DNA from: Tenericutes bacterium HGW-Tenericutes-2
GTDB lineage: Bacteria; Bacillota_I; Bacilli_A; Acholeplasmatales; Acholeplasmataceae
Reading direction: 5' to 3'
Assembly (NCBI GenBank): GCA_002839095.1
Contig: PGXL01000003.1
Span: 119,063-183,062, forward strand
DNA: 64,000 nt
Part shown: piece after piece, positions 23,371 to 48,636 of the stretch
Layout of the letters: each line of letters starts with the position of its first letter
How positions within the stretch are numbered: the first letter of the stretch is position 1
Notes under the pieces: generated by a model
What the model saw: the letters and a program-made list of their open reading frames with translations, nothing else
What the model was told of the DNA's origin: nothing
Databases searched by the model: none
Position numbers and translations under genes: made by a program

Positions 23371-24081
23371 ATGAAGTTATCCAAGGTTCTTAAAGTTCAA
23401 AAGTCAATCAGACAAAAGCGAATGCAGTCCTTATTCTTTATCGGATCTGGCATTCTTTCAGTCATTTTCATTCTCATAACTTTCTATGGACAACAAGCAG
23501 GGAACTTCGTCATGACAGTTGATTACGATGCATATAAACGAGGTATAGTCTTATCCAATGATGAAACTTTCAATAATGCTCAGGCAAGATTGATGACAAA
23601 GCCTGTTGGAGAAGCAAGAGACATGACATACTCTTGGTTGAAGATTGAAGAAGTATCAGCAACTACAGGAAATTATAGGGATCCAGATTATGATTATGTT
23701 GCATATACATTTTATCTTCAAAATAATGGAGTCGAAGCCGTTAATATCATCTATCACATTAGAATTACAGATACATATAAAGGAATGGATGAGGCAATAA
23801 GGGTTTTAGTGATTGAAGAAGGGGTAGAGACGATTTACCAAAAACCAGATAATAACCCTGGTGGTGGTGTCTTAATTAGTTATCCTCTTGAATTACAGCG
23901 TACTGAAAAGTTTTTATCAGAAACCATTGTAACAAGAAAAAGAATTTCCAATTTTACACCAGGACAGATCAGAAAATTCAGTGTTGTGATGTGGATTGAG
24001 GGAACTGACCCAGATTGTACAGATGATATCTTAGGTGGAATGATTAAGCTTCAGATGAACTTCTCGATTGAAAAACCATAG
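23371..24081 (+). CDS. exported TasA-like family protein A1
   Basis: 236 residues with an N-terminal hydrophobic segment (about 20-43) ending FYGQQAGNFVMTVD, then a beta-rich extracytoplasmic domain. The C-terminus VVMWIEGTDPDCTDDILGG followed by a short hydrophobic strand is, from memory, a recurrent ending of SipW-dependent/camelysin-TasA-like proteins, and the same W-x-EG-x-D element recurs in the next two genes. It starts cluster 1; RBS AAGGGAAGAAG. The paralogue is at 38060. It is probably a membrane-linked or exported component of a surface fibre. The exact role, assembly base or minor subunit, is unknown. Confidence 0.65.
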   Translation: MKLSKVLKVQKSIRQKRMQSLFFIGSGILSVIFILITFYGQQAGNFVMTVDYDAYKRGIVLSNDETFNNAQARLMTKPVGEARDMTYSWLKIEEVSATTGNYRDPDYDYVAYTFYLQNNGVEAVNIIYHIRITDTYKGMDEAIRVLVIEEGVETIYQKPDNNPGGGVLISYPLELQRTEKFLSETIVTRKRISNFTPGQIRKFSVVMWIEGTDPDCTDDILGGMIKLQMNFSIEKP

Positions 24082-24092
24082 GAGGAGGGCAT

Positions 24093-25058
24093 ATGAATAA
24101 AATAAGGAAACTCTATCTATCAACACTCTCACTTCTATTTATCCTCATGATCTTTGGTACTGTCACCTACGCGTGGATTACGATGTCAACGATTAATAGT
24201 ATTGAAGGCTTATCATTAACTGCAACAACAGCAAGTGAACTAGAAATATCACTCGATGGCATCAATTTTGGAAATCACATTGATTCATCAGTGATTGAAG
24301 TATATTTCGGTAATCCAACACTTAAGGATGTTACCTCAAGAAATGGTGTTGACTTTAGAAGAGGTGGACTTACTGAATATGGAGTTGCAATTCCAAACCG
24401 AGATTATATGTCCTTCGAATTATGGTTTAGGACCTCAAAGCAAGAACATGGACTCTATTTAATCAATAATGTTAGTCCAACTGTCATGTATGATACAACA
24501 GCTAAAGGAACATATGTCGTATCAAGAGGTAGAAGCTGGGAAAGTAGTGTTGACTTCTTAAACGGCAATCAAATTGGCAATATGGTTTATAAGGGTGATG
24601 TCAACTTCTATTATGCAAGTCAAGCAGTAAGAATTTCAGTTGAAGAACTCAAGGATGATGAAAATTTGCTTGACACAAGAGATTTAAATGATTTAAGGGT
24701 ATTTCTATACGATCCATCAGAAAATGAATCTAGAGGATACGGAAAACCATATGGAGCATATAGCTACTTTGCACAGCATACCGGAGTTTTCATAGAATTA
24801 CCTAGTGAATTACCACCTACGAGCTACAGATTATCAGAGATGGATCCTATGAATCCATATCAGGCTTTAGATAATGAATCACTGGTTGCACTACTACAGG
24901 AAACAATTCATCAAACACCAGCAGGAAAAACTTATTATCAAGGCAAGGTTAGAATTAATATCTGGATAGAAGGTTGGGATGCAGATGCATTCGACGCAAT
25001 TATCTCAGATCGAATTAAAATGCAGCTGGAATTCAAAATTGCACATCCAGCACAGTAA
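24093..25058 (+). CDS. SipW-type signal peptide surface protein B1
   Basis: 321 residues. The N-terminus has a short basic stretch, a hydrophobic core and the ending GTVTYAWI, the AxA-type/AW junction shared by most exported proteins in this region and typical of SipW-dependent precursors. The mature part is beta-rich and ends with INIWIEGWDADAFDAI plus a strand, matching proteins A1 and C1. Likely cleaved by the SipW peptidase encoded 1.1 kb downstream. RBS AGGAGG is 7 bases before ATG. The paralogue B2 is at 38781, sharing LTATSS/LTATTA, SYRLSEMDP and NPYQALDNESLVA. Confidence 0.72.
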   Translation: MNKIRKLYLSTLSLLFILMIFGTVTYAWITMSTINSIEGLSLTATTASELEISLDGINFGNHIDSSVIEVYFGNPTLKDVTSRNGVDFRRGGLTEYGVAIPNRDYMSFELWFRTSKQEHGLYLINNVSPTVMYDTTAKGTYVVSRGRSWESSVDFLNGNQIGNMVYKGDVNFYYASQAVRISVEELKDDENLLDTRDLNDLRVFLYDPSENESRGYGKPYGAYSYFAQHTGVFIELPSELPPTSYRLSEMDPMNPYQALDNESLVALLQETIHQTPAGKTYYQGKVRINIWIEGWDADAFDAIISDRIKMQLEFKIAHPAQ

Positions 25059-25130: not shown

Positions 25131-26063
25131 ATGAACAAACTCACAAGAAAGTTAGTATTATCCGTTTTATCAGTCGTTTTAACAGTGGTAGCACTTGGAA
25201 CTACGACATTTGCATGGTTTACAATTACGAATACAGCAACAGTACAACCATTTCAAGCAGAAGTTATTGCTGATTCAGGGATTCAAATTGCGATAGGTAC
25301 TGGAGATCCTCTATCATTAGAATGGAAGACTACATTGACTACACAAGACATTATTAATTATATGACACTCACTTATGGTGTAGATGGATTTAGATTCAAT
25401 CACGTAACTTCACCTGATGGAAGAAATTTTTACACACTAGGTACAGTCGGTGTTGGTGATGGTACAACAGAAGGCTATTTACAATTACCACTTCATTTCA
25501 GATCAGATTCTACATCTAAAATCAATTGGAGCTATGTTTCATTAAGTGGACTAGATGCTTCATTTACAACTAGAGTAGCGTTTACCGACAGTAAAGGTGT
25601 TGCTCGTGCTGCTAACAGTTCACTACTTGTTAATCCAGCAGACGCGATGAGAATATCTATCACTGGTCAAGTTGCTTCACTTCAATCAACATTAGCTTAT
25701 GAAAATCCAAGCTCTGATACAAACACAGTTCTTGGTGGTTTAGATGCAGAAGATCTACGTGGAACTACTGAAGATGTACAAGGCGTACCTACCTATATTG
25801 GTGTTAATGGTGCTCAAAACTACTTCTACAGATCCAATGCGATTCTTCCTGGTGGAAGTAATGCAGTTTCTACAGTAACAACTTTAACTTCTTTAGATAA
25901 CAATCTAATCCTAGACATGGCTTCAGGTCAAGAATTAACAGCTGATGCTGAATACTATGGACAAGTTACTGTACGTATTTGGTTTGAAGGTTGGGATGCA
26001 GAAGGCTACAATGCATTATTAGGCAGAACAATCCTTGCATCATTTAGATTCCAAGGAGCATAA
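25131..26063 (+). CDS. TasA-like major surface protein C1 (SipW-type precursor)
   Basis: 310 residues. Signal region KLVLSVLSVVLTVVALG then TTFAWFT, with the predicted cut after the Ala of TFA. The mature protein is Thr/Ser/Ala-rich, low in Lys and free of Cys, with an ending RIWFEGWDAEGYNALLGR. Such composition suits a secreted filament subunit, and TasA of Bacillus is the best-known SipW substrate. A strong RBS (AAGGAG) and an RNA hairpin just after the gene suggest a high and uncoupled protein level. The paralogue C2 (39825) has an almost identical first 35 residues but a diverged body. Calling it the main fibre subunit is inference. Confidence 0.72.
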   Translation: MNKLTRKLVLSVLSVVLTVVALGTTTFAWFTITNTATVQPFQAEVIADSGIQIAIGTGDPLSLEWKTTLTTQDIINYMTLTYGVDGFRFNHVTSPDGRNFYTLGTVGVGDGTTEGYLQLPLHFRSDSTSKINWSYVSLSGLDASFTTRVAFTDSKGVARAANSSLLVNPADAMRISITGQVASLQSTLAYENPSSDTNTVLGGLDAEDLRGTTEDVQGVPTYIGVNGAQNYFYRSNAILPGGSNAVSTVTTLTSLDNNLILDMASGQELTADAEYYGQVTVRIWFEGWDAEGYNALLGRTILASFRFQGA

Positions 26064-26085
26064 TATTTAAATAAAATAACGATTT

Positions 26086-26142
26086 CTAGTCGGGTAAGTG
26101 CAACAACGTTCATGTTGCACTTACCAACCTACTTGGTGACTA
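26086..26142 (+). ncRNA. intercistronic hairpin element, copy 1
   Basis: GGTAAGTGCAACA (26093-26105) pairs perfectly with TGTTGCACTTACC (26113-26125). An outer TAGTC/GACTA pairing (26087-26091 with 26138-26142) encloses it together with CCTACTTGG. There is no T-run, so it is not a standard terminator. An equivalent with compensated base changes lies at the same place in cluster 2. It likely stabilises the upstream C message or dampens readthrough to the peptidase gene. Confidence 0.75.
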
Positions 26143-26162: not shown

Positions 26163-26852
26163 ATGAATCCTATTACTAGAAAAAAAGTAGTTAACATAAT
26201 TAAAGTATCACTTAATGGAATATTTTATGCTGTTATTATCTTTTTGGTGTTATTTTCAGTTGCCAGTATCAAACTAAAATCGCAAGCTGATATAGCAAAT
26301 ATTTTTCAAACTGGTTTTCTTTCTGTGCAATCGGATTCGATGACAGGAGATAACAAAGATTCCTTCAATCAAGGAGATGTCATCTTGGTAAGTATGTTAA
26401 ATGATCAATCTAGATCTCATCTACAAGTTGGAGACATTGTTACATTTTATGATATGAGAATTAGAAGTCATAATACGCATCGTATCGTCTTGATTGAGTA
26501 TATTGATGGTGAAGCATTTTTAATCACTAAAGGTGATAATGCAACAGAAGCAGATCGACCAATTCATATTTCAGAAGCACTATCCGTGCATCGCCAAACC
26601 ATACCAGGTATTGGAAATATGCTTGATTATCTTCAATCACCAGTTGGATTTGCTTTATTTGTAATTCTTCCTGTGTTAGTCTTACTTTTACTAGAAGGAG
26701 CATTTTTAGTAAGATTCCTTCTTGTGATGAATAAAGAAAAACTTGAACTTAAGTTTAAAAAAGAAGTTCAAATTGTGAATCAAAGCTTGGAATCAGAAAT
26801 AGAGGCAATTCGCAAGGAAATACTTCGCGAACTTGAGTTAACAAAGGGATAA
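26163..26852 (+). CDS. sipW: SipW-type signal peptidase I, copy 1
   Basis: 229-residue membrane peptidase of the ER/archaeal type that processes TasA-like precursors on the outer membrane face. TM1 is about 17-38. The catalytic Ser is in SDSM (Ser59), His replaces the bacterial Lys in THRIV (His106), and an Asp lies in the KGDNATEAD stretch (125-131). A second TM (about 158-183) is followed by a charged cytosolic tail of ~45 residues, longer than in Bacillus SipW. It stands between the C1 gene and the AAA+ gene. Paralogues are at 40860 and 45059. Confidence 0.88.
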   Translation: MNPITRKKVVNIIKVSLNGIFYAVIIFLVLFSVASIKLKSQADIANIFQTGFLSVQSDSMTGDNKDSFNQGDVILVSMLNDQSRSHLQVGDIVTFYDMRIRSHNTHRIVLIEYIDGEAFLITKGDNATEADRPIHISEALSVHRQTIPGIGNMLDYLQSPVGFALFVILPVLVLLLLEGAFLVRFLLVMNKEKLELKFKKEVQIVNQSLESEIEAIRKEILRELELTKG

Positions 26853-26887: not shown

Positions 26888-28414
26888 ATGGTAGAATTTG
26901 GACGTTATTATATCAATTTCATCAGAGAATTCTTTCAAAAAATCGTTGATTTTTTTAAAGGAATATTCCAAGTGTTTAGTGCACTGTTCTTAGATGGAGT
27001 CTCAGATCTTTTTACAGATTTCATGTTAGCATCGATTCATTTTTCACTTTTAGACTGGGTAATGACAATTATCGTGTTTGTAATCAACATTGTCTTTATT
27101 GTAATTCTAACGATGAAGCTAGCTCAAGCACTAAAAAGATATATAAAATTTTCTAAGCAAGAGATTGAAAAGGATGAGCTGGTCGCTGAAATTGCATTTC
27201 TAAATCAAAAAGCTATCGAGTTGATTGATGAGAAGAATAAGATTTTAGCACTTAAGGTATCCAATTTAGGTATCAATCCTGACCATCCAGATGGTGAGGA
27301 TTTTGAAGAAGATCCTAATCTTCCACAATCCAGATTTGTTAAATTGATTCAAGTGGATTTAGATTATAAGGATGTCGTCACAACACTAAGAATGAAGGAT
27401 GATGACATGATTAGTTTAAAGGATCTTGTTACAAGATTCATAAACTTTTCAGCAAGTAAATTAGGTCTATATTATAATAACAAGATTATATCAGCATTCT
27501 TTGCTGGTATGGCAGCTTCTAAAACAATGATTTTAGAAGGTATTTCAGGTACTGGTAAAACATCACTACCTTATGCAATGGGTAAATTCTTTAATCATGA
27601 TGCAGCTATTATTGCGGTTCAACCCTCATGGAGAGATCGCGCAGAAATGATTGGTTATTTGAATGAATTTACTAAAAAATTCAATGAAACAGATTTCTTA
27701 AAGGCAATTTATGAAACTACTTACCGTGAAGATATTAATATTATCGTTCTAGATGAAATGAATTTAGCACGCGTTGAGTACTATTTTGCAGAGCTATTAT
27801 CACTTCTTGAAATGCCAGATCATGACCAATGGTTAATTGATATTGTTCCAAATACAGAGCCTGGTGATCCCAAGAACTTCCACAGAGGTAAGATTTTACT
27901 ACCTCAGAATGTATGGTTTATCGGTACAGCAAATAAGGATGACTCAACATTTATTATCACCGATAAGGTCTATGACCGTGCCACTCCAATTGAAATCAAC
28001 ACAAAATCACAATATATCGATGCACCACCTACCGAAGGTGTTACATTCAGCTATGACTATTTAACAGATCTTTTTAGAACTGCATTTAAGGAACATCCAA
28101 TGAGCTTAGCTGCAGTTGAAAATCTAGAGAAGTTAGATAACTTCATTACTAAGAATTTTAAAGTTACATTTGGTAACCGTATAATGAAACAAATCAGATC
28201 ATTCGTACCAGTCTATGTAGCATGTGGTGGTAGTGAATATGAAGCGCTTGATTATATGGTTGCAAGAAAGATCTTTAGAAAGTTTGAAGGCTTAAATTTA
28301 CCATTCTTACAGACTGAAATCAATGATTTATCGAAATTATTAGATAAGCTCTTTGGAAAAAATGAATTTGAGGAATGTCAAGCATTTCTAAATAATATTA
28401 AGAAGCAATTCTAA
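26888..28414 (+). CDS. membrane-anchored McrB-like AAA+ ATPase, copy 1
   Basis: 508 residues. An N-terminal amphipathic stretch and a TM (about 57-80) are followed by a short coiled coil (FLNQKAIELIDEKNKILALK) and a linker, then the AAA+ domain. Walker A is GISGTGKT at 218-225; then VQPSWRDRAEMIGYLNEF, Walker B IIVLDEMNLARVEYYFAELL, sensor-1 WFIGTANKDD and an Arg finger region DKVYDRATP. The pattern of W-x-D...GY-x-N and the GTAN sensor fits the McrB/MoxR side of AAA+ proteins. No DNA-binding or nuclease domain is seen. Its role here is unknown; energy-driven remodelling of exported subunits or of a membrane complex is inference. The paralogue at 41605 is near-identical through the AAA+ core. 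Confidence 0.85.
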   Translation: MVEFGRYYINFIREFFQKIVDFFKGIFQVFSALFLDGVSDLFTDFMLASIHFSLLDWVMTIIVFVINIVFIVILTMKLAQALKRYIKFSKQEIEKDELVAEIAFLNQKAIELIDEKNKILALKVSNLGINPDHPDGEDFEEDPNLPQSRFVKLIQVDLDYKDVVTTLRMKDDDMISLKDLVTRFINFSASKLGLYYNNKIISAFFAGMAASKTMILEGISGTGKTSLPYAMGKFFNHDAAIIAVQPSWRDRAEMIGYLNEFTKKFNETDFLKAIYETTYREDINIIVLDEMNLARVEYYFAELLSLLEMPDHDQWLIDIVPNTEPGDPKNFHRGKILLPQNVWFIGTANKDDSTFIITDKVYDRATPIEINTKSQYIDAPPTEGVTFSYDYLTDLFRTAFKEHPMSLAAVENLEKLDNFITKNFKVTFGNRIMKQIRSFVPVYVACGGSEYEALDYMVARKIFRKFEGLNLPFLQTEINDLSKLLDKLFGKNEFEECQAFLNNIKKQF

Positions 28415-28430: not shown

Positions 28431-29195
28431 ATGAAAAAAACAAACAATCACAGCTTGCATCGGATGATGATTCTCTCTGTTGTTTATTTTCTTTCTGCAT
28501 TCATGTTACTTTCGGTTACAGTATATGCTTGGTTTATTATTACTAATGAAAATAACACTCAATTGATTTCACATATATCAGATGTTGAAGCAGAATATGA
28601 GTTTTATGTCTATCAAAATCGATTACATGATGGAAGTAATGAAATAACACTTGAGAATAATGTGTGTCTAACCACTGGTGAAGATTTATGCTATAAATTA
28701 ATACCAAACCCAACATCTGCACATCTAATGGATGGAAGTGCTGCACCTGGAGAAAGATATTCATTTGCGATTAAAATTTTAGCACTAGGAAACTCAGTAT
28801 CTTATCTGAATTTAAGTATGAGCGGTGTAACATCTTCTGGCTATGATTTATACCAGAATAGAATCCAAAATGCTTTTTATTATCAAGTCACTAAGATTGT
28901 ATATGTCCAAGACGATGTCGAAACTGAGGACAAAAAAAATATTTCTCCTACTCAATATTCCTATGGCTATTTCGATGAAGACTCAAGTCATCATTATCCA
29001 TTAGTCAAAAATGTTCCATTATTTATTAACCAAGAGCTTGGATCCTCTTTAATTATCTTCTTTGATTTTTATTTTGATCCAACAATATTTGGTTCTGACA
29101 TCAATCAGATACCTTACACCAATTCAAATATTTTTATGAATCAGATATTTACTGTACAAGATATATTTATGCTAATATCCAGTGAGCTGACATAA
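28431..29195 (+). CDS. SipW-type exported protein D
   Basis: 254 residues; the N-terminal hydrophobic core ends in TVYAWF, the same junction as in its neighbours, so it is probably a SipW substrate. The mature part is beta-rich and has two Cys close together (NVCLTTGEDLCYKL), which could form a disulfide outside the cell. Its end, FDFYFDP followed by a stretch with QDIF, resembles that of the protein at 45917, so the two may be distant paralogues. RBS AAGGAAGGTG. It is the first gene after the AAA+ ATPase, where cluster 2 has the DUF2357-like gene instead. Function unknown. Confidence 0.6.
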   Translation: MKKTNNHSLHRMMILSVVYFLSAFMLLSVTVYAWFIITNENNTQLISHISDVEAEYEFYVYQNRLHDGSNEITLENNVCLTTGEDLCYKLIPNPTSAHLMDGSAAPGERYSFAIKILALGNSVSYLNLSMSGVTSSGYDLYQNRIQNAFYYQVTKIVYVQDDVETEDKKNISPTQYSYGYFDEDSSHHYPLVKNVPLFINQELGSSLIIFFDFYFDPTIFGSDINQIPYTNSNIFMNQIFTVQDIFMLISSELT

Positions 29196-29210: not shown

Positions 29211-29864
29211 ATGTCTATGCGTAAATTATTAATTGTGACACTCATTTTATTTGCTACACTGTCAACTGCATTGATTACGCATGCATGGTTTACCTATGTT
29301 CAAAGAAAATCGATTGCACAATTTGTATCCAATGAAATCGTAGTAGAAACTAGAGCAAACGATGAACTCATCCTTGATCAATTTGATTTAGATGAACTTG
29401 CCTATATTGATTTTGAAAATGATTTGATGAATGATCTATCAAATGTCTTTGATGAAATGGCAACTTCAATTGATATAGATATCATCCTAAGCAGTAACTC
29501 TCCACTCACTAGACATATCATCAATGTGGATGTAAATCATGATGCAATCATCATGCTAATTGTTTATGAAGGTATTAATCTGGGTAGTCAACACCAAAAA
29601 AACACAGCTTATTATAGCTTAATTCAAACGATTTACTCTCCACTTACTGAGAGAGCAGACATTATGGATGCAATTTACTTATACAATCAAAGTATATTGA
29701 ATGATATTAAAAATACGACATTATTCCCTGGAGATAAGCTTTCATTTCAACTCGTTTTTTGGGTTGATTATGATTTGATTGAATACCCAGAAAACTACTT
29801 AGATTATGAATTTTCAATGACTGTTAGCATTAACTCGGTTTCTGCTAAAAAAGAGGTAGATTAA
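29211..29864 (+). CDS. SipW-type exported protein E
   Basis: 217 residues, N-terminal signal ALITHAWFTY after a hydrophobic core. The mature part is acidic and beta-rich, with LFPGDKLSFQLVFWVDYD near the end, reminiscent of the P-G-D strand signature of TasA-like subunits. AGGAG lies 6 bases before ATG. It sits between D and F with gaps of 15 and 1 bases. No family recognised beyond the export signal; probably a minor subunit or adaptor of the surface structure. Confidence 0.55.
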   Translation: MSMRKLLIVTLILFATLSTALITHAWFTYVQRKSIAQFVSNEIVVETRANDELILDQFDLDELAYIDFENDLMNDLSNVFDEMATSIDIDIILSSNSPLTRHIINVDVNHDAIIMLIVYEGINLGSQHQKNTAYYSLIQTIYSPLTERADIMDAIYLYNQSILNDIKNTTLFPGDKLSFQLVFWVDYDLIEYPENYLDYEFSMTVSINSVSAKKEVD

Positions 29865-29865
29865 G

Positions 29866-30534
29866 ATGAGAATATTAAAAAACAGATATTTTCTTATTGG
29901 TGTTTTGTATGTCATCTTATTATTACTTTCTGTAGTGTTAACGTTTGCTTACTATACGACAGATAAGGAATATGGAATTACGCTTTCAACAGGTGATATA
30001 GAGATTGTTGCATATATATCATTTGATGATTTATATATCGATAGCGAAAGCATATATTACGACACATCAAAGAATGTTTTATTAGTGAATACTTATGATC
30101 CAGAGAGTCAAAATTATATAGGAAAGCTTGATATAAGAATTACAGTTAAAACATCTTTAGCATCGAGATTAAGAATCAAACTCATGGATGAGTGGGAACT
30201 CACAAGAACATATAAGGAAGACAATAGACAAACAGTTGAAACAATATATCATACCAATAAAGAGTCATCATATTACCCATTTTCATTATTAAAAATGGGC
30301 AATGAATTTTCACCACTTTTTGAGTCAGATGGCTATGCCTATGAGCAAAGCATACTCACTCAAGGTGTAATCAAAGAATTTCATTTAGTTGACGGTGGAG
30401 ATCGCTTCTCCGTACGTAACAATGTATTCTTTGAAGAGTCATGTACATTAAAATTAAGCTTTATTATTGATGTAATACAAGCCAACAGATATGTTGAGCT
30501 ATGGGGGCTCTCAAGAGATTTTTATAACGAATAG
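29866..30534 (+). CDS. SipW-type exported protein F
   Basis: 222 residues. The hydrophobic N-terminus ends VLTFAYYTTDKEYGITLSTG, a variant of the TFAWFT junction with Tyr in place of Trp; the T-x-x-Y-x-I-x-L-x-(T/S)-G-x-(I/L) pattern is typical just after the SipW cleavage site of TasA/camelysin-like proteins. The mature domain is beta-rich. It lies one base after E and 12 before the giant gene, so is coupled with both. Specific role unknown. Confidence 0.58.
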   Translation: MRILKNRYFLIGVLYVILLLLSVVLTFAYYTTDKEYGITLSTGDIEIVAYISFDDLYIDSESIYYDTSKNVLLVNTYDPESQNYIGKLDIRITVKTSLASRLRIKLMDEWELTRTYKEDNRQTVETIYHTNKESSYYPFSLLKMGNEFSPLFESDGYAYEQSILTQGVIKEFHLVDGGDRFSVRNNVFFEESCTLKLSFIIDVIQANRYVELWGLSRDFYNE

Positions 30535-37733: not shown

Positions 37734-37762
37734 TTGACAATACTTGAGACTTAGAATAAAAT
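37734..37762 (+). promoter_or_regulatory. consensus promoter of surface cluster 2
   Basis: A perfect TTGACA at 37734-37739, a 17-base spacer and TAAAAT at 37757-37762. The transcript would begin near 37769, just ahead of the tandem c-di-GMP riboswitches. Confidence 0.85.
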
Positions 37763-37795
37763 ACAGGTGTATCGACTCATATAGATACAAAAATG

Positions 37796-37892: not shown

Positions 37893-37920
37893 TCAAATAT
37901 CTGTGAAATTGATATAAAAA

Positions 37921-38012
37921 TGTAAAAGGCAAACTTAGGGGAACCTAAGGACGCAAAGCTAAAGGGCCTAATAAAAGGTAGCCAGTTGTCATTTCGTGAC
38001 GCTGGCTTTTTG
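37921..38012 (+). ncRNA. cyclic di-GMP-I riboswitch (GEMM-I), second of tandem
   Basis: Nearly a copy of the first: GGCAAACTTAGGGGAACCTA, then AGGACGCAAAGCTAAAGGGC and AAGGTAGCCAGTTGTC. Its terminator is stronger: AGCCAG (37980-37985) with CTGGCT (38002-38007) and GTCA with TGAC inside, followed by T. Since both units must read through, the pair should act as a sharper, more digital gate for the A2-B2-C2-sipW-AAA-DUF2357 operon. Confidence 0.95.
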
Positions 38013-38059
38013 TTTCATAAAAATGAGATTAAAAATACCTAAAAAAAGGAGTGATGATG

Positions 38060-40771: not shown

Positions 40772-40833
40772 CTAGTCACTGGTAAGTGCACTTCGTTCAA
40801 GTGCACTTACCATCCTACTTGGATTTCGACTAG
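40772..40833 (+). ncRNA. intercistronic hairpin element, copy 2
   Basis: GGTAAGTGCACTT (40781-40793) pairs with AAGTGCACTTACC (40799-40811). The outer pairing is CTAGTC (40772-40777) with GACTAG (40828-40833), and CCTACTTGG is conserved between the arms as in copy 1. Differences in the stem are compensated (CAACA/TGTTG versus CTT/AAG), which supports a real RNA structure. Confidence 0.78.
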
Positions 40834-40859: not shown

Positions 40860-41573
40860 ATGAAACCAGAAACAAAGAAAACAGTTATTAAAGTTGGAAA
40901 AATCATTTTAAATGTTTTGTTTTACTCAGTAATTATATTACTCATCACATTTTCAATTGCAAATATGCAGCTGAAGAAAAAAGATGATATTGCCAATGTC
41001 TTTGGGAATGGTTTTACGACTGTATTAACAGATTCCATGGATGGTGAAGAAAGTGATTCTTTCACCGTTGATGATATTGTATTTGTTAAGCTTTTAAATG
41101 ATGAATCAAGAGCTAAATTAGAAGTAGGAGACATTATTACTTATTTCAGCATGGATATTCCTGGATTGGGTGTTCAAGGTTTGATTACTCACAGAATTTC
41201 TGAAATTATTGTTATCGAAGGCGAAACATTCTTTATCACGAAAGGTGATAAGGCTGGTGCAACAGATGACGCTCCTATTCATATTTCTGAAGCTTTAGCA
41301 CAATACCAATCTAAGTGGGTTGGTGCAGGTGGTGCATTAAAATATTTGCAGACTCCATCAGGATTTGCATTATTTGTTATTCTACCTGTTATCATTATGC
41401 TAGTTTTTGAAGGTATTATGCTTGTAAGAAATGTTATTAGACTTAATAACGAAAAGCTTGAAAAGAAATTTGCTATCAACAAGGATCAAGCAGTTTTTGA
41501 TGTTGAGGCAGAAAAAGAAAAAATTAGACAACAAGTTCTTGAGGAATTAAAAAAAGAGAGTCAAGACAAATAG
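40860..41573 (+). CDS. sipW: SipW-type signal peptidase I, copy 2
   Basis: 237 residues with the same layout as copy 1: TM1 (about 15-37), Ser in TDSM, His in THRISE, KGDKAGATDD, a second TM near 165-190 and a charged tail. ER-type Ser-His-Asp signal peptidase. Expected to cut the A2/B2/C2 precursors. It lies between the hairpin and the AAA+ gene, the same order as in cluster 1. Confidence 0.88.
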   Translation: MKPETKKTVIKVGKIILNVLFYSVIILLITFSIANMQLKKKDDIANVFGNGFTTVLTDSMDGEESDSFTVDDIVFVKLLNDESRAKLEVGDIITYFSMDIPGLGVQGLITHRISEIIVIEGETFFITKGDKAGATDDAPIHISEALAQYQSKWVGAGGALKYLQTPSGFALFVILPVIIMLVFEGIMLVRNVIRLNNEKLEKKFAINKDQAVFDVEAEKEKIRQQVLEELKKESQDK

Positions 41574-41604
41574 AGTAGTTATCAATTAACCACAAGGAGT
41601 GCGT

Positions 41605-43149
41605 ATGGTAGAGTTTGCTCGTTACTATATTGACTTCATTAGACAGTTTTTTGTTAATATCGGTGAATTCTTCAATCGGATTTTTGGGGCATTTGCCGAC
41701 TTATTATTTAATGGAGTTATAGAATTTATAAGAAATTTCATCGCTAAAAGTGTTGACTTCACATTGCTGGATTGGGTAATGGCTTTTCTTGTTTTAGTCA
41801 TTAATCTAGCATTTGTAGTATTCGTGGTCTTAAAACTCTATCAAGTCACTAGAAGATATGTTAAATTCGCTAAAATAGAAATTGAAAAAGATGAGCTTCT
41901 AGAAGAAATTTCATTTTTAAACCAAAAAACTGTAGAACTGATTGATGAAAAGAACAAGATACTTGCTCTAAAGGTTTCTAATTTGGGTGTGACACCTAAT
42001 GATGACTCAATGAATTACGGTCAACCTGGCTCAGATGATTTAGACGATGAATATACAGGACCATCAAGATTTGTTAAGCTCCTACAAGTCGATAAAGAAT
42101 ATGAAAACATGGTGACTCAAATCCACATGAAAGATGAGGATATGATTACACTTAATGAGCTTGTGAAGAGATTTATCAACTTCTCAGCATCAAGATTAGG
42201 ACTTTTCTACGATAAAAAAATTATATCAGCATTCTTTGCTGGTATGGCTGCTTCCAAAACAATGATTCTAGAAGGTATCTCTGGTACCGGGAAAACATCC
42301 CTTCCATATGCAATGGGAAAATTTTTCAACAATGATTCAGAAATCATCGCTGTACAACCCTCTTGGAGAGATCGTGCAGAAATGATTGGTTACTTAAATG
42401 AATTTACGAAGAAGTTTAATGAAACTGACTTCCTAAAGGCAATCTATAAAACGACATATCGTGATGATATTTGCATCATCGTATTAGATGAAATGAACTT
42501 GGCACGTGTAGAATATTACTTTGCTGAACTTTTATCACTTCTTGAAATGCCTGATGCGGATGCGTGGCTTGTTGATATTGTCCCTGATAATCAGCCAGGA
42601 GATCCTAAGCATTTACAAAACGGTAAGATCTTATTACCACAAAATGTTTGGTTTATTGGTACAGCAAATAAGGATGACTCAACATTTACCATTACCGATA
42701 AGGTCTATGACCGTGCGACACCAATTATAATTAACTCAAAATCAGCTTATATCGATGCACCAGACACTGAAGGTGTAAACATGAGCTATGACTACTTAAT
42801 TGAATTATATCGTCAAGCAAATAAAGAGCATTCATTATCATTAAAAGCGATTGAAAACCTAGAAAAACTTGACCAATTTATTACTAAGAACCTAAAGGTT
42901 ACATTCGGTAATCGTATCATGAAACAGATTAGAGCATTCGTTCCAGTCTATGTAGCATGCGGAAACTCCGAATATGAAGCACTAGACTACATGGTAGCTA
43001 GAAAAATATTTAGAAAGTTTGAAAGCTTAAATCTACCATTCTTACAGGATGAAATTAACGAGCTTTCCGTATTACTTGATCGTTTATTCGGTAAAGGTGT
43101 GTTTGTTGAATGTCAAGACTATCTAAGCACAATTAAGAGACAGTTCTAA
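41605..43149 (+). CDS. membrane-anchored McrB-like AAA+ ATPase, copy 2
   Basis: 514 residues. The N-terminal TM (about 58-82) and coiled coil (FLNQKTVELIDEKNKILALK) match copy 1, then the linker diverges and the AAA+ core is almost identical: GISGTGKT at 224-231, QPSWRDRAEMIGYLNEF, IIVLDEMNLARVEYYFAELL, WFIGTANKDD, DKVYDRATP. ATG 41605 was chosen over GTG 41599 because AAGGAG at 41595-41599 would overlap the latter. Strong conservation of the core with variable partners suggests that the ATPase has a fixed mechanical task and system-specific docking. It is followed after 12 bases by the DUF2357-like gene, its probable partner. Confidence 0.85.
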   Translation: MVEFARYYIDFIRQFFVNIGEFFNRIFGAFADLLFNGVIEFIRNFIAKSVDFTLLDWVMAFLVLVINLAFVVFVVLKLYQVTRRYVKFAKIEIEKDELLEEISFLNQKTVELIDEKNKILALKVSNLGVTPNDDSMNYGQPGSDDLDDEYTGPSRFVKLLQVDKEYENMVTQIHMKDEDMITLNELVKRFINFSASRLGLFYDKKIISAFFAGMAASKTMILEGISGTGKTSLPYAMGKFFNNDSEIIAVQPSWRDRAEMIGYLNEFTKKFNETDFLKAIYKTTYRDDICIIVLDEMNLARVEYYFAELLSLLEMPDADAWLVDIVPDNQPGDPKHLQNGKILLPQNVWFIGTANKDDSTFTITDKVYDRATPIIINSKSAYIDAPDTEGVNMSYDYLIELYRQANKEHSLSLKAIENLEKLDQFITKNLKVTFGNRIMKQIRAFVPVYVACGNSEYEALDYMVARKIFRKFESLNLPFLQDEINELSVLLDRLFGKGVFVECQDYLSTIKRQF

Positions 43150-43161: not shown

Positions 43162-45036
43162 ATGAAAAAAACAAGTGATTTGGTAAAATTCCATCAACAG
43201 CTCAATGATGCATTCTATGAGCTTGAAAAAGAAGAAGAATTTCCAAATTTGTTTTATACTGCATTTCTTTCTGGTGAAAACACATTATTTCAAAAAACTG
43301 TTTCAGAAACTAAGACATTTCATGAAGAATGGATTGGAACTATTGAGTCTTATTTTCCTAGCTTAGATAAAATCACTAAGGATCCGAAATCTGGTTTAAA
43401 ATATCTACAAGAAGTTGTAGCAATCGAAAAGGCTAAGAAAACCAATAGTGATTCAATTAGACATTTAGCTGCAAATACCCATCTGATTAAAGAAATTAGA
43501 GATGGGCAAGTGATACCTAAAAAAATATTAACGACTCAAGCTGAAATACAATATGCTATTTATGAAAATAGATTCATCAAAACGCTAGTCAATCGTCTAT
43601 TTGATTTCGTAAACAATAGACATGAACTTGTGAAGAACAATGTTGAATCCTTTCAGACTAAGCAATTTAAATTGACATCTCAATTCGAGGTTAGAGAAAC
43701 TAAGGTGGATCTAGGAATCGAATTAAAATTTATAGAAGATTTAGAAAATGACGAAGTCAGTCACTATAATCATGAGTTACTCAATCGAATTCAATCCTTA
43801 CTTAAAAAGGTAAATGGAATTCGTGTTTCGCTATTTATGGAAGAATTAAAGAATGCAAAACCTGTTATTCCGCCAATTATGAAAACTTCCATTTTATTGA
43901 AAAACGTTGATTATCAAAACTGCTATAATCTATGGCTATATTTAGATAAATATAACACCTTAAATTATAACGTCAATGTTACAGAAAAGAATCTAACATT
44001 TGATAGATATTATTTAAGAAATGTTTATCAAAGTGCATTAACTGCGTTTACAACAGTATATGCTAATCAAAAAGCACTTGAGGATCATTATCAATATCTA
44101 GATGTTACTGAATATAAAAAGAAATCACCTAAATTTCTTAAAAAGAGCTTATCTGATATCATGAAAAATCCTGATCCTTTCATCTTAGAGGATACTCAAA
44201 TCAATCAATATTTTCTTGATCAAAATAAGATGGCATTCAGTGAAAAATTGGATAGATTTAAGGATGAGTCATCAAGCTATGATGTAGCACTTAGAAAAGC
44301 ACTCCGTGATACAATTGCTATTACAAACACATTATTTCAAGATTATTTTGATTTAAATGATGATGACGAAGCAGATGATATTTTCTTCTCAAGAATGGTT
44401 AAGCAGGATTTAGATGCAGAATTACTTAGAGCAAAGGATCGTGCAAGAATTGCAAGAATTATTCGTGAAACAAAGGAAGTCGATTATAACAATTCTATTC
44501 GTTTAGAAAAAAGAATGCTAAAGGAAATAGAAAGAGTCAATAAGGAAATCTCCAAGGGTCTTAAAAAAAGAGCAATTGATGAAGCGAAAAAACAAGCAAT
44601 TGAAGAGCGTATCAAACTTGAAAGAAGCAACCTTGATAAGAACCAAGAAACATTATCTGGATATCTTGAATTCGTTAGTGAACAGAAGAGAATTATCACA
44701 GATGAAGCTAGAGATGTAACAGAAAGAATTAAAGCAGAAGAAAAGCGTATTAAGGCAGAAGAAAAGAAAATTATAGAGCTAGAAAAGAAAAAAGCGACTA
44801 TACAATATAATCAAGAACTCAGAAAACTTAAAACTAAGCAACGTTTAGAAAAAGAAAAGATGGAAAAACTTGCAAAAGCTAAGATTCGTGCTGAAAAGAA
44901 GCGTTTTAAGGATGAGCAATTGAAACTAGAAAAGGCATCAAAGGAACGCATTCGTAAAGAGAAAGAAAAAGTCAGAACTCAAGCAGAAAATAAGATAAAA
45001 ACAGTAAAAAAAGAAAAGTCTAATACTATGGAATAA
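43162..45036 (+). CDS. DUF2357/McrC-like partner with long C-terminal coiled coil
   Basis: 624-residue, highly charged cytosolic protein. Around residues 132-142 it has IYENRFIKTL, the E-N-R-F-(V/I)-K signature I associate with DUF2357 and McrC-type partners of McrB-like ATPases. The domain around it is alpha-helical. The PD-(D/E)xK nuclease motif that normally follows in McrC relatives was not found. From about residue 420 to the end the protein is a Lys/Glu-rich coiled coil (RIKAEEKRIKAEEKKIIELE and similar). It directly follows AAA+ copy 2; no equivalent follows copy 1. A scaffold or activator for one or both ATPases is inferred. If the family call is wrong it is simply an unknown coiled-coil protein. 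Confidence 0.5.
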   Translation: MKKTSDLVKFHQQLNDAFYELEKEEEFPNLFYTAFLSGENTLFQKTVSETKTFHEEWIGTIESYFPSLDKITKDPKSGLKYLQEVVAIEKAKKTNSDSIRHLAANTHLIKEIRDGQVIPKKILTTQAEIQYAIYENRFIKTLVNRLFDFVNNRHELVKNNVESFQTKQFKLTSQFEVRETKVDLGIELKFIEDLENDEVSHYNHELLNRIQSLLKKVNGIRVSLFMEELKNAKPVIPPIMKTSILLKNVDYQNCYNLWLYLDKYNTLNYNVNVTEKNLTFDRYYLRNVYQSALTAFTTVYANQKALEDHYQYLDVTEYKKKSPKFLKKSLSDIMKNPDPFILEDTQINQYFLDQNKMAFSEKLDRFKDESSSYDVALRKALRDTIAITNTLFQDYFDLNDDDEADDIFFSRMVKQDLDAELLRAKDRARIARIIRETKEVDYNNSIRLEKRMLKEIERVNKEISKGLKKRAIDEAKKQAIEERIKLERSNLDKNQETLSGYLEFVSEQKRIITDEARDVTERIKAEEKRIKAEEKKIIELEKKKATIQYNQELRKLKTKQRLEKEKMEKLAKAKIRAEKKRFKDEQLKLEKASKERIRKEKEKVRTQAENKIKTVKKEKSNTME

Positions 45037-45058: not shown

Positions 45059-45739
45059 TTGAAGAAGATCATATCGATTATCATCACAACTTTAGCAATC
45101 TTAATCTTCTTATTCGCAATTGGTATCATGTTTATTGGAACCAGTGCGATGAAAAAGAATGAACCGCTTTATATTTTTGGTTATTCATTCTCGATTGTAC
45201 CTACTGAGTCTATGATAGGTGATGCTTCAGATTCACTAAATCAATATGATATTGCCATTATTAGAAAATCAAGCTTTGATCAAATTGAAATTGGTGATGT
45301 TATTGTATTTCAAGGTGAATTCCAAGGAAAAGAAATACTCATCATCCATAGAGTCGTTGGAATTCATCATGAAGGTGGCTTTGAAACCAAGGGTGATAAT
45401 AATGCATCGGTTGACGTTGAACCTGTTACAGAAGACATTTATCAAGGAACATTTCATGCTAAAATCACATTTTTAAAGCCAATTGCTAGCTTAGCAGCCA
45501 ATTCTAGAGGTTTCATTTTTATAGCATTAAGTCTAATTTTGGTTGCAATGGTTGTCTCAGAAACACTCCATATCATTAAGACAATCAAGCATGATAAAGA
45601 GGAAAAATTAAAGATAGAATTTGATGAAAATTTAGAAAATATTAAGGCTTTAGAAAAGCAAAAACTCTATGAAGAAATACTCAAAGAAGAACAAGAAAAA
45701 ATGAAGTCAAAACCAGGCGATTTTATTGACAAAAAATAG
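45059..45739 (+). CDS. sipW: SipW-type signal peptidase I, copy 3
   Basis: 226 residues, TTG start with AAGAGGA upstream. TM1 is about 4-26, the catalytic Ser in TESM, the His in IIHRVVG, and KGDNNASVDVEP carries the Asp. A second TM (about 150-172) and a Lys/Glu-rich tail follow. More diverged than copies 1 and 2. It ends the riboswitch operon of cluster 2; the -35 box of the next promoter overlaps its last codons. It may serve the two exported proteins just downstream. Confidence 0.87.
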   Translation: MKKIISIIITTLAILIFLFAIGIMFIGTSAMKKNEPLYIFGYSFSIVPTESMIGDASDSLNQYDIAIIRKSSFDQIEIGDVIVFQGEFQGKEILIIHRVVGIHHEGGFETKGDNNASVDVEPVTEDIYQGTFHAKITFLKPIASLAANSRGFIFIALSLILVAMVVSETLHIIKTIKHDKEEKLKIEFDENLENIKALEKQKLYEEILKEEQEKMKSKPGDFIDKK

Positions 45740-45754
45740 GATTCGCAGTATAAT
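45726..45754 (+). promoter_or_regulatory. perfect consensus promoter
   Basis: TTGACA at 45726-45731, 17-base spacer, TATAAT at 45749-45754. It drives the third c-di-GMP riboswitch and the two genes after it. The -35 lies inside the end of the third sipW gene. Confidence 0.92.
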
Positions 45755-45789
45755 TTAATTGTAGTCATATATTATTTATAATATATAAA

Positions 45790-45884
45790 ATTTGGCAAAA
45801 CTAGGGTAACCTAGTGACGCAAAGCTATAGGGCCTTCTTAAGGTAGCCAGTTGCACTCTCACGAGAGTTCAGCGGGCTTTTTTG
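45790..45884 (+). ncRNA. cyclic di-GMP-I riboswitch (GEMM-I), third
   Basis: TTTGGCAAAACTAGGGTAAC, then CTAGTGACGCAAAGCTATAG, GGCC and AAGGTAGCCAGTTGC are the GEMM-I core. The terminator has AGCC/GGCT outside and ACTCTC/GAGAGT inside, followed by six T (to 45883), and again takes up the 3' strand of the aptamer, so an ON switch is predicted. It controls the genes at 45917 and 46750. Confidence 0.95.
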
Positions 45885-45916: not shown

Positions 45917-46750
45917 ATGAAACAAATGCTAAAATCAGTCATTATGTTAATCACATCAATTTTACTGTTTACAGCAGTTGTTTATGCTTGGTTTACCATC
46001 AGCAATGATTCCTATATTAATCCAGTTAATGTAGGTGTCACAAATGAATTTGATTACGACTTTGAAGTTAGATATTATACAAAGGATTATGTCTATAGAT
46101 ATAATCAAGAGATCTTAGCTATTCAAGTATATGATACATCAACCTCATCTTGGATTTCACCTACAGATTTACCAGGTGGTACAGTTTACTTAATCGATGG
46201 AGTATTCATCAGTCAATATGATGTTTTAATTCCTGAAAATAATATAAAGAGCAATTTAATCATGGAAATATCTGTGACATTCAAAAATACTGCACCATTA
46301 CTTTTTTCTCAAAAAATGATATCTAATACTGATTTATCAAGTCAAGTTATTTCATCAATGATTCTTGAAACAAGTAGACCTTATTATGTCAGTGAAGTAT
46401 CTAATATTCAAACATTATTAAGTGACTCATACAATCACTATGCAGAAGAGTTCAATAAATACTCAATATTAAATACAGAGTTTGGTTTAGTAGATGGATC
46501 AAGCAACCTAATTTATCCAAAACACAGTTTTTATCAAAATGGAAGCTATCAATCTACATTATTACTTGGGGATAATGTTATTTATCCAGGATCTACTGAA
46601 CGCTATTATTATAACTTCAGCTACGATGCACAAAAGGTCAATCAATTTTTTACTGCTGAGTTTCAATCAACACCATACGATATCACAAATATTCCTGCGA
46701 TATTATTTTTCCAAGATATTCAAGTTGTACTCATAGGAGGTAATAGCTAA
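45917..46750 (+). CDS. SipW-type exported protein G
   Basis: 277 residues. The signal ends TAVVYAWFTISNDSYINPVNVGV, with the AWF junction shared by the region. The mature part is Tyr/Ser/Asn-rich and beta-rich; the end YNFSYDA...ILFFQDI resembles protein D of cluster 1. RBS AAAGGAGA. Its stop overlaps the next start by one base. It is under its own c-di-GMP riboswitch. Likely a surface subunit or adaptor; specific role unknown. Confidence 0.62.
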   Translation: MKQMLKSVIMLITSILLFTAVVYAWFTISNDSYINPVNVGVTNEFDYDFEVRYYTKDYVYRYNQEILAIQVYDTSTSSWISPTDLPGGTVYLIDGVFISQYDVLIPENNIKSNLIMEISVTFKNTAPLLFSQKMISNTDLSSQVISSMILETSRPYYVSEVSNIQTLLSDSYNHYAEEFNKYSILNTEFGLVDGSSNLIYPKHSFYQNGSYQSTLLLGDNVIYPGSTERYYYNFSYDAQKVNQFFTAEFQSTPYDITNIPAILFFQDIQVVLIGGNS

Positions 46751-48636
46751 TGAAAATTAGACCTCTTTTACTCGTTTTAGCAATACTTGCAAATATAGTC
46801 ATGATAACTACATTTACGTATGCATGGTTTGCGAATAATCAGCTATATGTTATTGATACGGTTGGTGCAACTAAAGAACAATACTTTGCTAAGGGTAGTG
46901 GAACTGAAGTAGATCCTTATGTTATTAGTAAGGCTGAGCATTTATATAGTCTATCCAAATTGCATGAAATGGGATTAATGCAACAAAAATATTATTATAC
47001 AATGGCAGATCCAATTACTGGCAATCCTGTTACAATTGATTTTAATGATGCAAGCTTACCTACTCAATATCAAACTTTGTTTAAACCGATTGGTGATCAT
47101 ATTTATCCATTCCTTGGACACTTTGATGGCAATCAGTCCATCATTAAAAACGTGAATATCAACGGATCATTAAAACAAGATATTGGATTTTTCGGTTTAA
47201 TTGGTGATGATGCTGTTGTTACAAATTTCTTTTTAGATAAGCCAGTTATTTATAGTAACCCACTTTCTACAGATAGCAGAGTAGGTTTTCATGAGCATGG
47301 TGTATCTTTTAGTGATAGCTATGCAACTGGTTTTATTGCCGGACATGTCCTTACATCAGCAACACTAGAAAGAGTTTATGTCATTGAGCCAATGATTAAT
47401 AGTGGAACGAATCAGTATTACAATGGTTCAAAATACGGATTGATCGGAAACACTTCTGATAACGCTTCGAGTGAAGATGGAGGTTTAAGTAATGCTTATT
47501 ACTTTGAACTGACTGCCGCTTGGTTGCACTTCATCATTACAAAAGGATTAGAACTTGATGCGAATACACCTCTTTATGTTGAAACTGGACTAAGATTAAG
47601 CACTGTATTATCGATAAACTCCAATGGACAAGCTGTTATTACTGGTAATACTTATAATAACAATTACTATACTATTTCTACCCTAAAGGTTTCATATAGT
47701 TCTTCATTTAGTAATCCTGTTTATTTATATGATCTACTGATTGAACTTGGATACGTCACTCCTTCACAAGGCGTTAACTTTAATAAGAAGAATATTGATG
47801 TTGTAGGTGGAACAACAGTTGATAATGTTGCCAATACTATGTCATTTGGTGTTTCATATAATGCATTTAGAACACCTTATTATAATCAGATATTTAATGC
47901 AAGACTTTTAAAAAACACAATTGTTTTATATGTTAGAGCAACTGGTGAGTCTATCTTGGGACAAATGACAGCGACATTTGCACCGAACGCGGAATTGAGA
48001 TTTATTCCTGGTTTTACTGCCGATTCGACTCAAATAACCGGATATCGCTATATTGAAAATCGAAGTTGGAACAACAAAAACGCTCTTATTGCATATCCTG
48101 GTGGATCAGGAGCAACAGTACCTATTCATATTGGTAGTGCATTTGCAGCAGTTATTGAAGATGCAAATGGAAACATGATTGTTGTTAATCCAAATGTGGT
48201 GATTCCTCATTATTATGTGTTTGTTTTAGGTATTTCCAACAGCCAGGTATCAACAGTAAACTCAGTTTCATTTAGATATGTACCTGCATCATCGGATGAA
48301 TTTGCAGCTCTCTATGATGTGGATGTTATTAATAATGTAGATGAAATATTAAATAACCCACAATACATTAACTCTGACCTTTATTTTGATTACTTTTTAG
48401 GTCTTAATCAAACCATGAATGTGAGACTCTTGAAGACATTTGATGCATCAGGAGAAGTCTATCGATTATATATTTCTGGGCATAATGCAGGTTCATCAAG
48501 TTTCTATGTTAATGTTACCAATATGAGTACGAAGCGAATTGAAATATATATTAATAATTCGTTATTGGTCACTAATTCAAACAAATCGACGTCACTAAGA
48601 TTTTCGAGTTCAGGAATCACTATAAGTACGTCCTAG
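46750..48636 (+). CDS. SipW-type exported protein H with GLUG-like beta-helix start
   Basis: 628 residues. The signal ends TFTYAWFANN. After the cleavage region comes GSGTEVDPYVISKAEHLY, a common opening of repeat-type surface proteins, and GHFDGNQSIIKNVNI, the GLUG-like motif also seen in the giant protein at 30547. The C-terminal half is beta-rich, Ser/Asn/Tyr-rich, and ends in a short SGITISTS with no anchor motif. It may be the c-di-GMP-induced counterpart of the giant adhesin. One-base overlap with G (TAATG) implies coupling. Confidence 0.65.
   Translation: MKIRPLLLVLAILANIVMITTFTYAWFANNQLYVIDTVGATKEQYFAKGSGTEVDPYVISKAEHLYSLSKLHEMGLMQQKYYYTMADPITGNPVTIDFNDASLPTQYQTLFKPIGDHIYPFLGHFDGNQSIIKNVNINGSLKQDIGFFGLIGDDAVVTNFFLDKPVIYSNPLSTDSRVGFHEHGVSFSDSYATGFIAGHVLTSATLERVYVIEPMINSGTNQYYNGSKYGLIGNTSDNASSEDGGLSNAYYFELTAAWLHFIITKGLELDANTPLYVETGLRLSTVLSINSNGQAVITGNTYNNNYYTISTLKVSYSSSFSNPVYLYDLLIELGYVTPSQGVNFNKKNIDVVGGTTVDNVANTMSFGVSYNAFRTPYYNQIFNARLLKNTIVLYVRATGESILGQMTATFAPNAELRFIPGFTADSTQITGYRYIENRSWNNKNALIAYPGGSGATVPIHIGSAFAAVIEDANGNMIVVNPNVVIPHYYVFVLGISNSQVSTVNSVSFRYVPASSDEFAALYDVDVINNVDEILNNPQYINSDLYFDYFLGLNQTMNVRLLKTFDASGEVYRLYISGHNAGSSSFYVNVTNMSTKRIEIYINNSLLVTNSNKSTSLRFSSSGITISTS

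Follow-up and report, generated by a model that had tools for sequence, protein, structure and literature searches.

A c-di-GMP riboswitch locus joining SipW-type peptidases and exported proteins to a predicted McrB-like membrane NTPase: a candidate surface-fibre machine in Acholeplasmataceae

What would a McrB-like AAA+ nucleoside triphosphatase (NTPase) be doing among SipW-type signal peptidases and exported proteins? The question is raised by a 64,000-nucleotide stretch (the window) of contig PGXL01000003.1 from Tenericutes bacterium HGW-Tenericutes-2, a genome of the Acholeplasma group (G000 in our set), in which a five-gene cassette with the order A, B, C, SipW, AAA+ occurs twice in the same direction, at 23371-28414 and 38051-43149. 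A sequence-only reading of this DNA had described such a tandem module, and a check of the window recovered, at the coordinates given, all open reading frames (ORFs) that the reading named. The locus as we define it runs from 19054 to 48636, with all features on the forward strand, and holds in one conserved gene order A-aromatic exported proteins, three SipW-family peptidases, the AAA+ protein, a DUF2357 protein and two GGDEF/EAL proteins. On balance we favour the view that it is a surface-fibre machine switched by cyclic dimeric GMP (c-di-GMP) and fitted with a membrane NTPase derived from McrBC; the interpretation given in the sequence-only reading is, overall, supported in part.

The check proposed with that reading, a search of AAA+ neighbourhoods for recurring sipW and precursor genes, came out in its favour. 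The set comprised the best 80 named loci among a larger number of AAA+ alignment matches, several of them from one genome and thus not independent, annotated with profiles that drew on the window and on 20 stretches from other genomes; one (L110) was dropped before the tally, no AAA+ gene having been called there, which left 79. SipW was present in 78 of these, all but L106, and lay directly upstream of AAA+ in 70. Relatives of B/C were found in 47, and of A in 46, of the 49 loci with at least 4 kb of upstream sequence. DUF2357 was the next gene in 59 of 72 loci with at least 2.5 kb downstream; the remaining 13 have no DUF2357 in the locus, and an exported D/E-type gene follows AAA+, as in copy 1 of the window. 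By comparison, none of ten control loci from another McrB-like family that the same search had turned up (about 900 residues, with its own DUF2357-like partner) contained SipW, A or B/C, and all seven of these that were scanned lacked a c-di-GMP riboswitch. Control L054 holds a GGDEF/EAL match because its stretch reaches towards a cassette on the same contig. Two loci fetched with the controls (L062, L063) were left out of the count because of a SipW3-like match; they represent a fourth AAA+ type (588 and 585 residues) in another family of the order, and in L062 the gene after it is DUF2357. In one genome (G033) the copy-1 SipW is missing or truncated (a 119-residue ORF, L036 8336-8695; L106), and its copy 1 may therefore use another SipW.

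Named relatives are mostly Acholeplasmataceae and include the free-living isolate Peloplasma aerotolerans M4Ah (L074, L089). All 20 genomes of the genus that were searched have the AAA+ gene, which was also found in 7 of 17 genomes of other genera in the family, being absent from the other 10; across the phylum 84 of 392 genomes gave matches, a count that takes in more distant McrB-like families. The order SipW-AAA+-DUF2357 persists even where AAA+ identity has fallen to 49-55%, among loci that carry the labels Acholeplasmataceae, Anaeroplasmataceae and Bacilli. Ten genomes (G000, G002, G003, G005, G010, G014, G017, G018, G033, G215) have two AAA+ copies on a single contig, separated by roughly 14-21 kb. 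In a quick tree, with support from the Shimodaira-Hasegawa-like approximate likelihood ratio test only, window copies 1 and 2 each cluster with the same copy of other genomes; 14 of 15 copy-1 rows belong to a single supported set, 37 rows in size, in which copy-2 rows occur as well, and copy 1 is not demonstrated as a single clade. An accident of one assembly was rejected because the two-copy arrangement recurs in these ten genomes, with the copies grouping by kind. Related AAA+ proteins were also seen in a protist data set (Anaeramoeba ignava, P0086; 70% identical) and in an Omnitrophota bin (L104; 62%), perhaps reflecting a symbiont, contamination or mis-binning.

Within the window the two copies share 50% identity in A, 54% in B, 55% in C, 48% in SipW and 74% in AAA+. 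AAA1 is followed by exported proteins D, E and F and then by a 2329-residue protein; AAA2 is followed by the DUF2357 protein, a third peptidase and two exported proteins (X1, X2), an arrangement that had been correctly anticipated (DUF2357 E 5.8e-12). Judged by conservation, the two GGDEF/EAL genes at 19054-23084 are part of the locus as well. Its features are as follows.

19054..21651 (+): GGDEF/EAL membrane protein 1, 865 residues; EAL and DDFG motifs present, GGDEF lost; place upstream of A kept in relatives
21648..23084 (+): GGDEF/EAL protein 2, 478 residues, hydrophobic N-terminal segment; Pfam EAL and GGDEF, GGDEF motif lost, DDFG changed to DGFG
23371..24081 (+): A1, exported or membrane-anchored, no A-[WYF] site (alignment, motif scan)
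24093..25058 (+): B1, SipW-type exported protein, VTYAWIT (alignment, motif scan)
25131..26063 (+): C1, SipW-type exported protein, TTFAWFT, candidate fibre subunit (alignment, motif, fold of the copy-2 homologue)
26087..26142 (+): RNA hairpin in the C1/SipW1 gap (folding z -6.2)
26163..26852 (+): SipW1 signal peptidase, charged C-terminal tail (TIGR02228 73.1 bits; Ser and His invariant)
26888..28414 (+): AAA1, predicted membrane-anchored McrB-like NTPase (AAA_5 under cut-off; alignment; profile against structures)
28431..29195 (+): D, SipW-type exported protein, TVYAWFI (motif, relatives)
29211..29864 (+): E, SipW-type exported protein, ITHAWFT (motif, relatives)
29866..30534 (+): F, SipW-type exported protein, LTFAYYT (motif, relatives)
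30547..37536 (+): BH, 2329-residue protein, beta-helix unconfirmed (relatives at locus end; no Pfam or PDB match)
37734..37762 (+): promoter-like site TTGACA-17-TAAAAT (11/12 consensus match)
37791..37868 (+): c-di-GMP-I riboswitch 1 (69.3 bits; predicted terminator overlaps aptamer by 14 nt)
37918..37993 (+): c-di-GMP-I riboswitch 2 (66.2 bits; predicted terminator overlaps aptamer by 14 nt)
38051..38773 (+): A2, exported or membrane-anchored, no A-[WYF] site (alignment, motif scan)
38781..39749 (+): B2, SipW-type exported protein, VTYAWLS (alignment, motif scan)
39825..40724 (+): C2, SipW-type exported protein, TTFAWFT, predicted beta-rich fold (alignment, motif, structure model)
40772..40833 (+): RNA hairpin in the C2/SipW2 gap (folding z -6.6)
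40860..41573 (+): SipW2 signal peptidase, charged C-terminal tail (TIGR02228 64.1 bits; Ser and His invariant)
41599..43149 (+): AAA2, McrB-like NTPase predicted to be membrane-anchored; NxD motif present (AAA_5 over cut-off; alignment; profile against structures)
43162..45036 (+): DUF2357 protein of the McrC N-terminal type; long helix predicted at its end; no match to a nuclease (Pfam, model)
45059..45739 (+): SipW3 signal peptidase (TIGR02228 55.7 bits)
45726..45754 (+): promoter-like site TTGACA-17-TATAAT (12/12 consensus match)
45784..45858 (+): c-di-GMP-I riboswitch 3 (56.4 bits; predicted terminator overlaps aptamer by 14 nt)
45917..46750 (+): X1, SipW-type exported protein, VVYAWFT (motif; N-terminus like D)
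46750..48636 (+): X2, SipW-type exported protein, FTYAWFA (motif; residues 57-167 like the start of BH)

All three window peptidases exceed the 51.85-bit cut-off of TIGR02228, the SipW/archaeal-type signal peptidase family. SipW-family peptidases use Ser-His in place of Ser-Lys, and Ser59 and His106 are invariant in 13 of 13 aligned sequences (11 from cassettes, 2 stand-alone). An A-[WYF] site ends the hydrophobic segment in 9 of the 12 candidate exported proteins (B1, C1, D, E, F, B2, C2, X1, X2) and is missing from A1, A2 and the 2329-residue protein; both features are those of SipW-dependent export. D, E and F stand as the three SipW-type exported proteins claimed after copy 1; the beta-helix assigned to the 2329-residue protein found no backing, since it matched neither Pfam nor solved structures at E 0.1. 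Searches of solved structures gave no match for the B profile and two chance-level rows for C (E 0.39 and 0.45), with no match to TasA; these profiles gave no support to a relation of C to TasA by sequence. To our knowledge the Bacillus subtilis TapA-SipW-TasA operon contains no AAA+, DUF2357 or GGDEF/EAL genes and no c-di-GMP riboswitch.

The tails of the peptidases differ with their setting. Those of cassette SipW1/2 are charged and 26-76 residues long (median 42, n=67) and those of SipW3 are more variable (0-67 residues, median 39.5, n=66), whereas stand-alone SipWs of the genus have short tails (3-13 residues, median 9; 25 proteins from 14 loci); because the sequences are related, the test statistic for tail length is descriptive only. 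A possible docking site for the long tail is the AAA+ coiled coil. Between C and the peptidase, a stable hairpin was predicted in 16 of 16 folded gaps (2 from the window, 14 from relatives; z -3.1 to -6.6), in agreement with the hairpins earlier proposed for both copies (z -6.2 and -6.6). Stem sequences differ among distant loci and no obvious U run lies 3′ of the hairpins, which would be fit to shield the upstream mRNA.

A profile of 13 AAA+ family members matched, at E 0.001, only McrB among solved structures (PDB 6hz4, E 7.8e-4); the AAA_5 family of Pfam matched copy 2 over the cut-off and copy 1 under it. Residues N357 and D359 of the N-x-D sensor are invariant in 13 of 13 aligned proteins, and according to the passages available of Bell et al. 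(PMC11090510) this motif marks the McrB clade with CoCoNuTs and CoCoPALMs. Residues ~58-82, read from the sequence, are hydrophobic; basic residues come next, and with them a long charged stretch, an arrangement that, by the positive-inside rule, would place the AAA+ core inside the cell. The protein at 43162-45036 carries DUF2357, the N-terminal domain of McrC (Pfam E 5.8e-12), which was matched in 13 of 16 homologues. None of the 16 matched a nuclease family in Pfam at E 0.01, a threshold that still allows for a very diverged domain. Its structure model shows a single helix at 417-620 with moderate confidence (mean predicted local distance difference test, pLDDT, 72.9; predicted template modelling score, pTM, 0.39) within a region, residues 310-620, predicted as helical or unstructured and partly of low confidence. 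The DUF2357 profile returned chance-level helical rows only from solved structures (E 0.27 and above), and Foldseek and VIA-align gave no McrC row for the model, which is uninformative given a pTM of 0.39.

The locus resembles Escherichia coli McrBC in its AAA+ core (PDB 6hz4, E 7.8e-4) and in the McrC-type DUF2357 domain, and departs from it elsewhere. Where McrBC has a DNA-reading domain the window AAA+ has a predicted membrane helix; where McrC carries a PD-(D/E)xK nuclease the DUF2357 proteins have no nuclease match (0/16); and the window-type genes have surface-protein neighbours and occur in every one of the 20 genomes searched in the genus. Membership of an ordinary McrBC system was rejected because none of the 16 DUF2357 proteins gave a match to a nuclease family.

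The sequence-only reading had put forward the set of SipW and McrB-like AAA+ genes as a candidate undescribed system, which holds in part. The link between McrB and a signal peptidase is already named CoCoPALM, within a study of defence systems (PMC11090510); the passages of that study available attach no function to it, and are silent on cargo, regulation, mechanism and organism. As described in those passages, CoCoPALMs have an NTPase of the NxD clade of McrB type with a membrane and coiled-coil N-terminus, a McrC homologue that usually has a coiled coil, and a neighbour of a signal-peptidase family (PMC11090510). The present locus shares the NxD motif (13/13), the linked peptidase (78 of 79 loci, and three window peptidases over the TIGR02228 cut-off) and, at the moderate confidence of the model, a predicted single helix at 417-620 in the McrC homologue, where CoCoPALMs have a coiled coil. 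A hydrophobic stretch at ~58-82 and the charged stretch after it, read from sequence, are a possible counterpart of the FtsB-like transmembrane and coiled-coil N-terminus. To the CoCoPALM description the locus adds the cargo proteins, the c-di-GMP-I switches, the GGDEF/EAL partners, the occurrence in two copies and the finding that no nuclease is matched. A literature search lacking most subscription journals found no relevant CoCoPALM paper other than the eLife article and its preprint, and none treating SipW together with a c-di-GMP riboswitch.

How is the locus controlled? Copy 2 had been placed under c-di-GMP riboswitches, a claim that survived with refinement. Three window aptamers exceed the c-di-GMP-I cut-off of Rfam (35 bits) with 69.3, 66.2 and 56.4 bits; the first two stand in tandem before A2, the third precedes X1 and X2, the last two exported genes, and copy 1 has none over the cut-off. 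Across the window and its near relatives (the Rfam scan took in 14 of the 20 neighbour stretches, leaving out L045-L049 and L051), a riboswitch precedes A in 12 of 12 scanned single-copy or copy-2 loci and in 0 of 4 copy-1 loci (window, L032, L035, L036). A further switch lies between SipW3 and the late exported genes in 9 of the 10 loci having such genes, and switches were present in 7 of 7 distant loci (AAA+ 49-55% identical). In 29 of 30 switches a predicted terminator overlaps the aptamer, its 5′ arm beginning inside it, mostly at AGCCAG, and taking up at least 13 aptamer nucleotides (a count that requires an overlap of 4 nt gives 30 of 30). The exception is a GGC variant (L041 12678-12757) whose terminator is unconvincing (dG -3.2, overlap 5). 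The shared stretch contains the 3′ strand of the closing helix in the Rfam alignment; aptamer and terminator would be mutually exclusive, and an ON switch is therefore predicted. These bulged terminators were missed by a simple consensus scan. Promoter-like sites precede switches 1 and 3, although the total of such sites is no higher than in shuffles.

The predicted polarity is opposite to that of the class I switches of Clostridioides difficile, described as OFF in the parts available of PMC11477304. Tandem class I switches are common elsewhere, as before A2, and a triplet of confirmed function in Bacillus thuringiensis is described in the portion available of PMC9481103. What differs here is the target, a SipW/AAA+/DUF2357 locus. 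Of seven c-di-GMP-I switches in the window genome three belong to this locus; of the other four, one precedes an AYW gene in a locus with a SipW pair and no AAA+ (L194), one an AFW gene (L195) and one an F/BH-type pair (L196), and the last lies at a contig end. L194 (G000:C47:12000-31000, 12624-17417) holds the SipW pair, three A-[WYF] exported proteins and the riboswitch, with no AAA+ or DUF2357, and SipW pairs outside cassettes recur in the genus. One relative has a c-di-AMP riboswitch close to its locus (L039 17750-17869).

The GGDEF/EAL pair upstream of A1 keeps its position in single-copy loci. Where 9 kb or more of upstream sequence was at hand, 24 of 42 loci showed a GGDEF/EAL gene; in copy-2 loci the giant gene of copy 1 sits there instead. 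Of the 27 distinct proteins in the size class of the first, 26 retain DDFG and 22 the EAL motif, while none has GGDEF, and the first protein is predicted to be a c-di-GMP phosphodiesterase. In the second protein GGDEF and DDFG are lost in 13 of 13 SipW-locus rows of alignment A3; a wider class of 31 proteins of 430-520 residues labelled GGDEF/EAL has DDFG in two and GGDEF in two, none of them an A3 row. This degenerate protein is a candidate c-di-GMP receptor. About 12 kb upstream of the locus, at 5551-6681, the window also encodes a predicted diguanylate cyclase with an intact RLGGDEF.

The same AAA+/DUF2357 family occurs in sister cassettes (L064-L068, L227-L230) alongside giant exported proteins and a GGDEF-EAL-type protein that is more degenerate still. 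The giants that are complete, four in number and 3441-4167 residues long, begin with a hydrophobic segment and carry a membrane helix at the C-terminus; the scanned part of one contains 13 cadherin-like repeats. Neither SipW nor a riboswitch was found in the five stretches L064-L068 (18-19 kb each), and the common partner of AAA+/DUF2357 may therefore be a surface protein and not the peptidase. In four stretches among L064-L068 and L227-L231 a second giant lies beside the first, followed by the degenerate GGDEF-EAL protein, AAA+ and DUF2357; the end of this second giant looks dockerin-like. A third arrangement, AAA+, DUF2357, AAA+ in tandem, was seen in L069-L071, and in L070 and L071 large proteins bearing surface domains of YDG or MBG type come after it.

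The cell surface on which such proteins would act probably has no wall. A search for peptidoglycan transpeptidase (PF00905) that was positive in 10 of 14 known genomes used as a control gave no match in the window genome. The related Peloplasma is described as wall-less in the text available, and a term search of the Peloplasma paper (PMC11122141) brought no mention of pili, fibres or biofilm. In a cell lacking a wall, surface structures would have to be membrane-held, which would suit membrane-anchored machinery. The window also has, at 10791-18850, a lysine riboswitch before lysine/diaminopimelate-type genes, though the genome is without detectable peptidoglycan transpeptidase.

These results support a model in which high c-di-GMP would keep the aptamer folded and bar its 3′ strand from the terminator, as the RNA geometry suggests, giving read-through into the fibre genes, with two or more switches in series sharpening the response. 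GGDEF/EAL 1 is predicted to degrade c-di-GMP and degenerate GGDEF/EAL 2 to sense it at the membrane. SipW would cut B, C and the later AWF proteins, whereupon TasA-like subunits may polymerise outside by donor-strand exchange, with A and the giant protein as base, anchor or tip. In this apparently nuclease-free NTPase of McrBC type the AAA+ protein would form a McrB-like hexamer beneath the membrane, with one helix and a coiled coil as its anchor, and the DUF2357 protein would stimulate it in the way that McrC stimulates McrB. It would work where the growing fibre has its base, and its coiled coils may grip the long charged SipW tails; by pulling on or gating peptidase and subunits it could couple processing with assembly, anchoring or release. 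The hairpin 3′ of C may protect the A-B-C mRNA, yielding more subunits relative to machine. The sequence-only reading had likewise proposed a fibre or matrix machine with its ATPase at the membrane: conserved linkage and a predicted membrane-anchored McrB-like NTPase agree with that proposal, and a fibre role is likely.

The main rival to a fibre machine is quality control of a surface layer. AAA+ and DUF2357 would then be a MoxR-like quality-control or regulatory unit of an ordinary SipW/TasA-type layer, clearing stuck precursors or setting peptidase activity without building or moving fibres. The long SipW tails would suit an NTPase docking on the peptidase, the window genome itself has a SipW/AWF locus that does without AAA+ (L194), and between the two copies conservation is far higher in AAA+ (74%) than in SipW (48%) or in A, B and C (50-55%). 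Against this, the same NTPase family stands beside giant membrane-anchored proteins with no SipW found in 18-19 kb (L064-L068), and control of the peptidase is therefore unlikely as its only task; we regard this explanation as serious, if rather unlikely.

A role in defence, with a CoCoPALM relative of type IV restriction and the surface proteins and peptidase taking part in an anti-phage envelope response, would draw on the homology to McrB and McrC, on the naming of CoCoPALM in a defence study (PMC11090510, as far as available) and on a match of the AAA+ protein to the PADLOC candidate model PDC-M26A, although that model also matches AAA+ proteins from the families used as controls. Defence genes tend to have a patchy distribution. 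Outside the genus this holds here (7 of 17 other genomes of the family, with 10 lacking it), but within it all 20 searched genomes carry AAA+, which lowers this reading; the lack of a nuclease match (0 of 16 DUF2357 proteins) and the c-di-GMP-I riboswitches, which tie the locus to a surface-protein regulon, make it improbable. Gene order by itself cannot prove contact, and copy 1 has an AAA+ gene without DUF2357, as might be expected if a surface-protein operon and an unrelated NTPase merely shared promoters and worked by separate mechanisms. Such chance neighbours would hardly keep the SipW-AAA+-DUF2357 order to 49-55% AAA+ identity in loci with the labels Acholeplasmataceae, Anaeroplasmataceae and Bacilli, nor would the linked SipWs alone have a long tail, and we give this explanation very little weight.

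Returning to the fibre machine, we tentatively offer a bolder reading, which we hold with well under even confidence: that a restriction-enzyme motor has been recast as the motor of a surface organelle. A nuclease-free membrane GTPase of McrBC type, switched by c-di-GMP at both RNA and protein level, might act on a tailed SipW and drive assembly, extension or release of donor-strand fibres, or of giant cadherin-like adhesins in the sister cassettes, on wall-less bacteria. McrBC relatives are known as nucleases, and we know of no dedicated nucleotide-driven motor at the base of TasA-type fibre systems. If this is true, the CoCoPALM clade would gain a concrete and testable job. The control logic gathered in one locus (promoter, tandem ON-type riboswitches, hydrolase and degenerate receptor) would yield testable predictions, and the system would show how wall-less cells build and anchor surface fibres.

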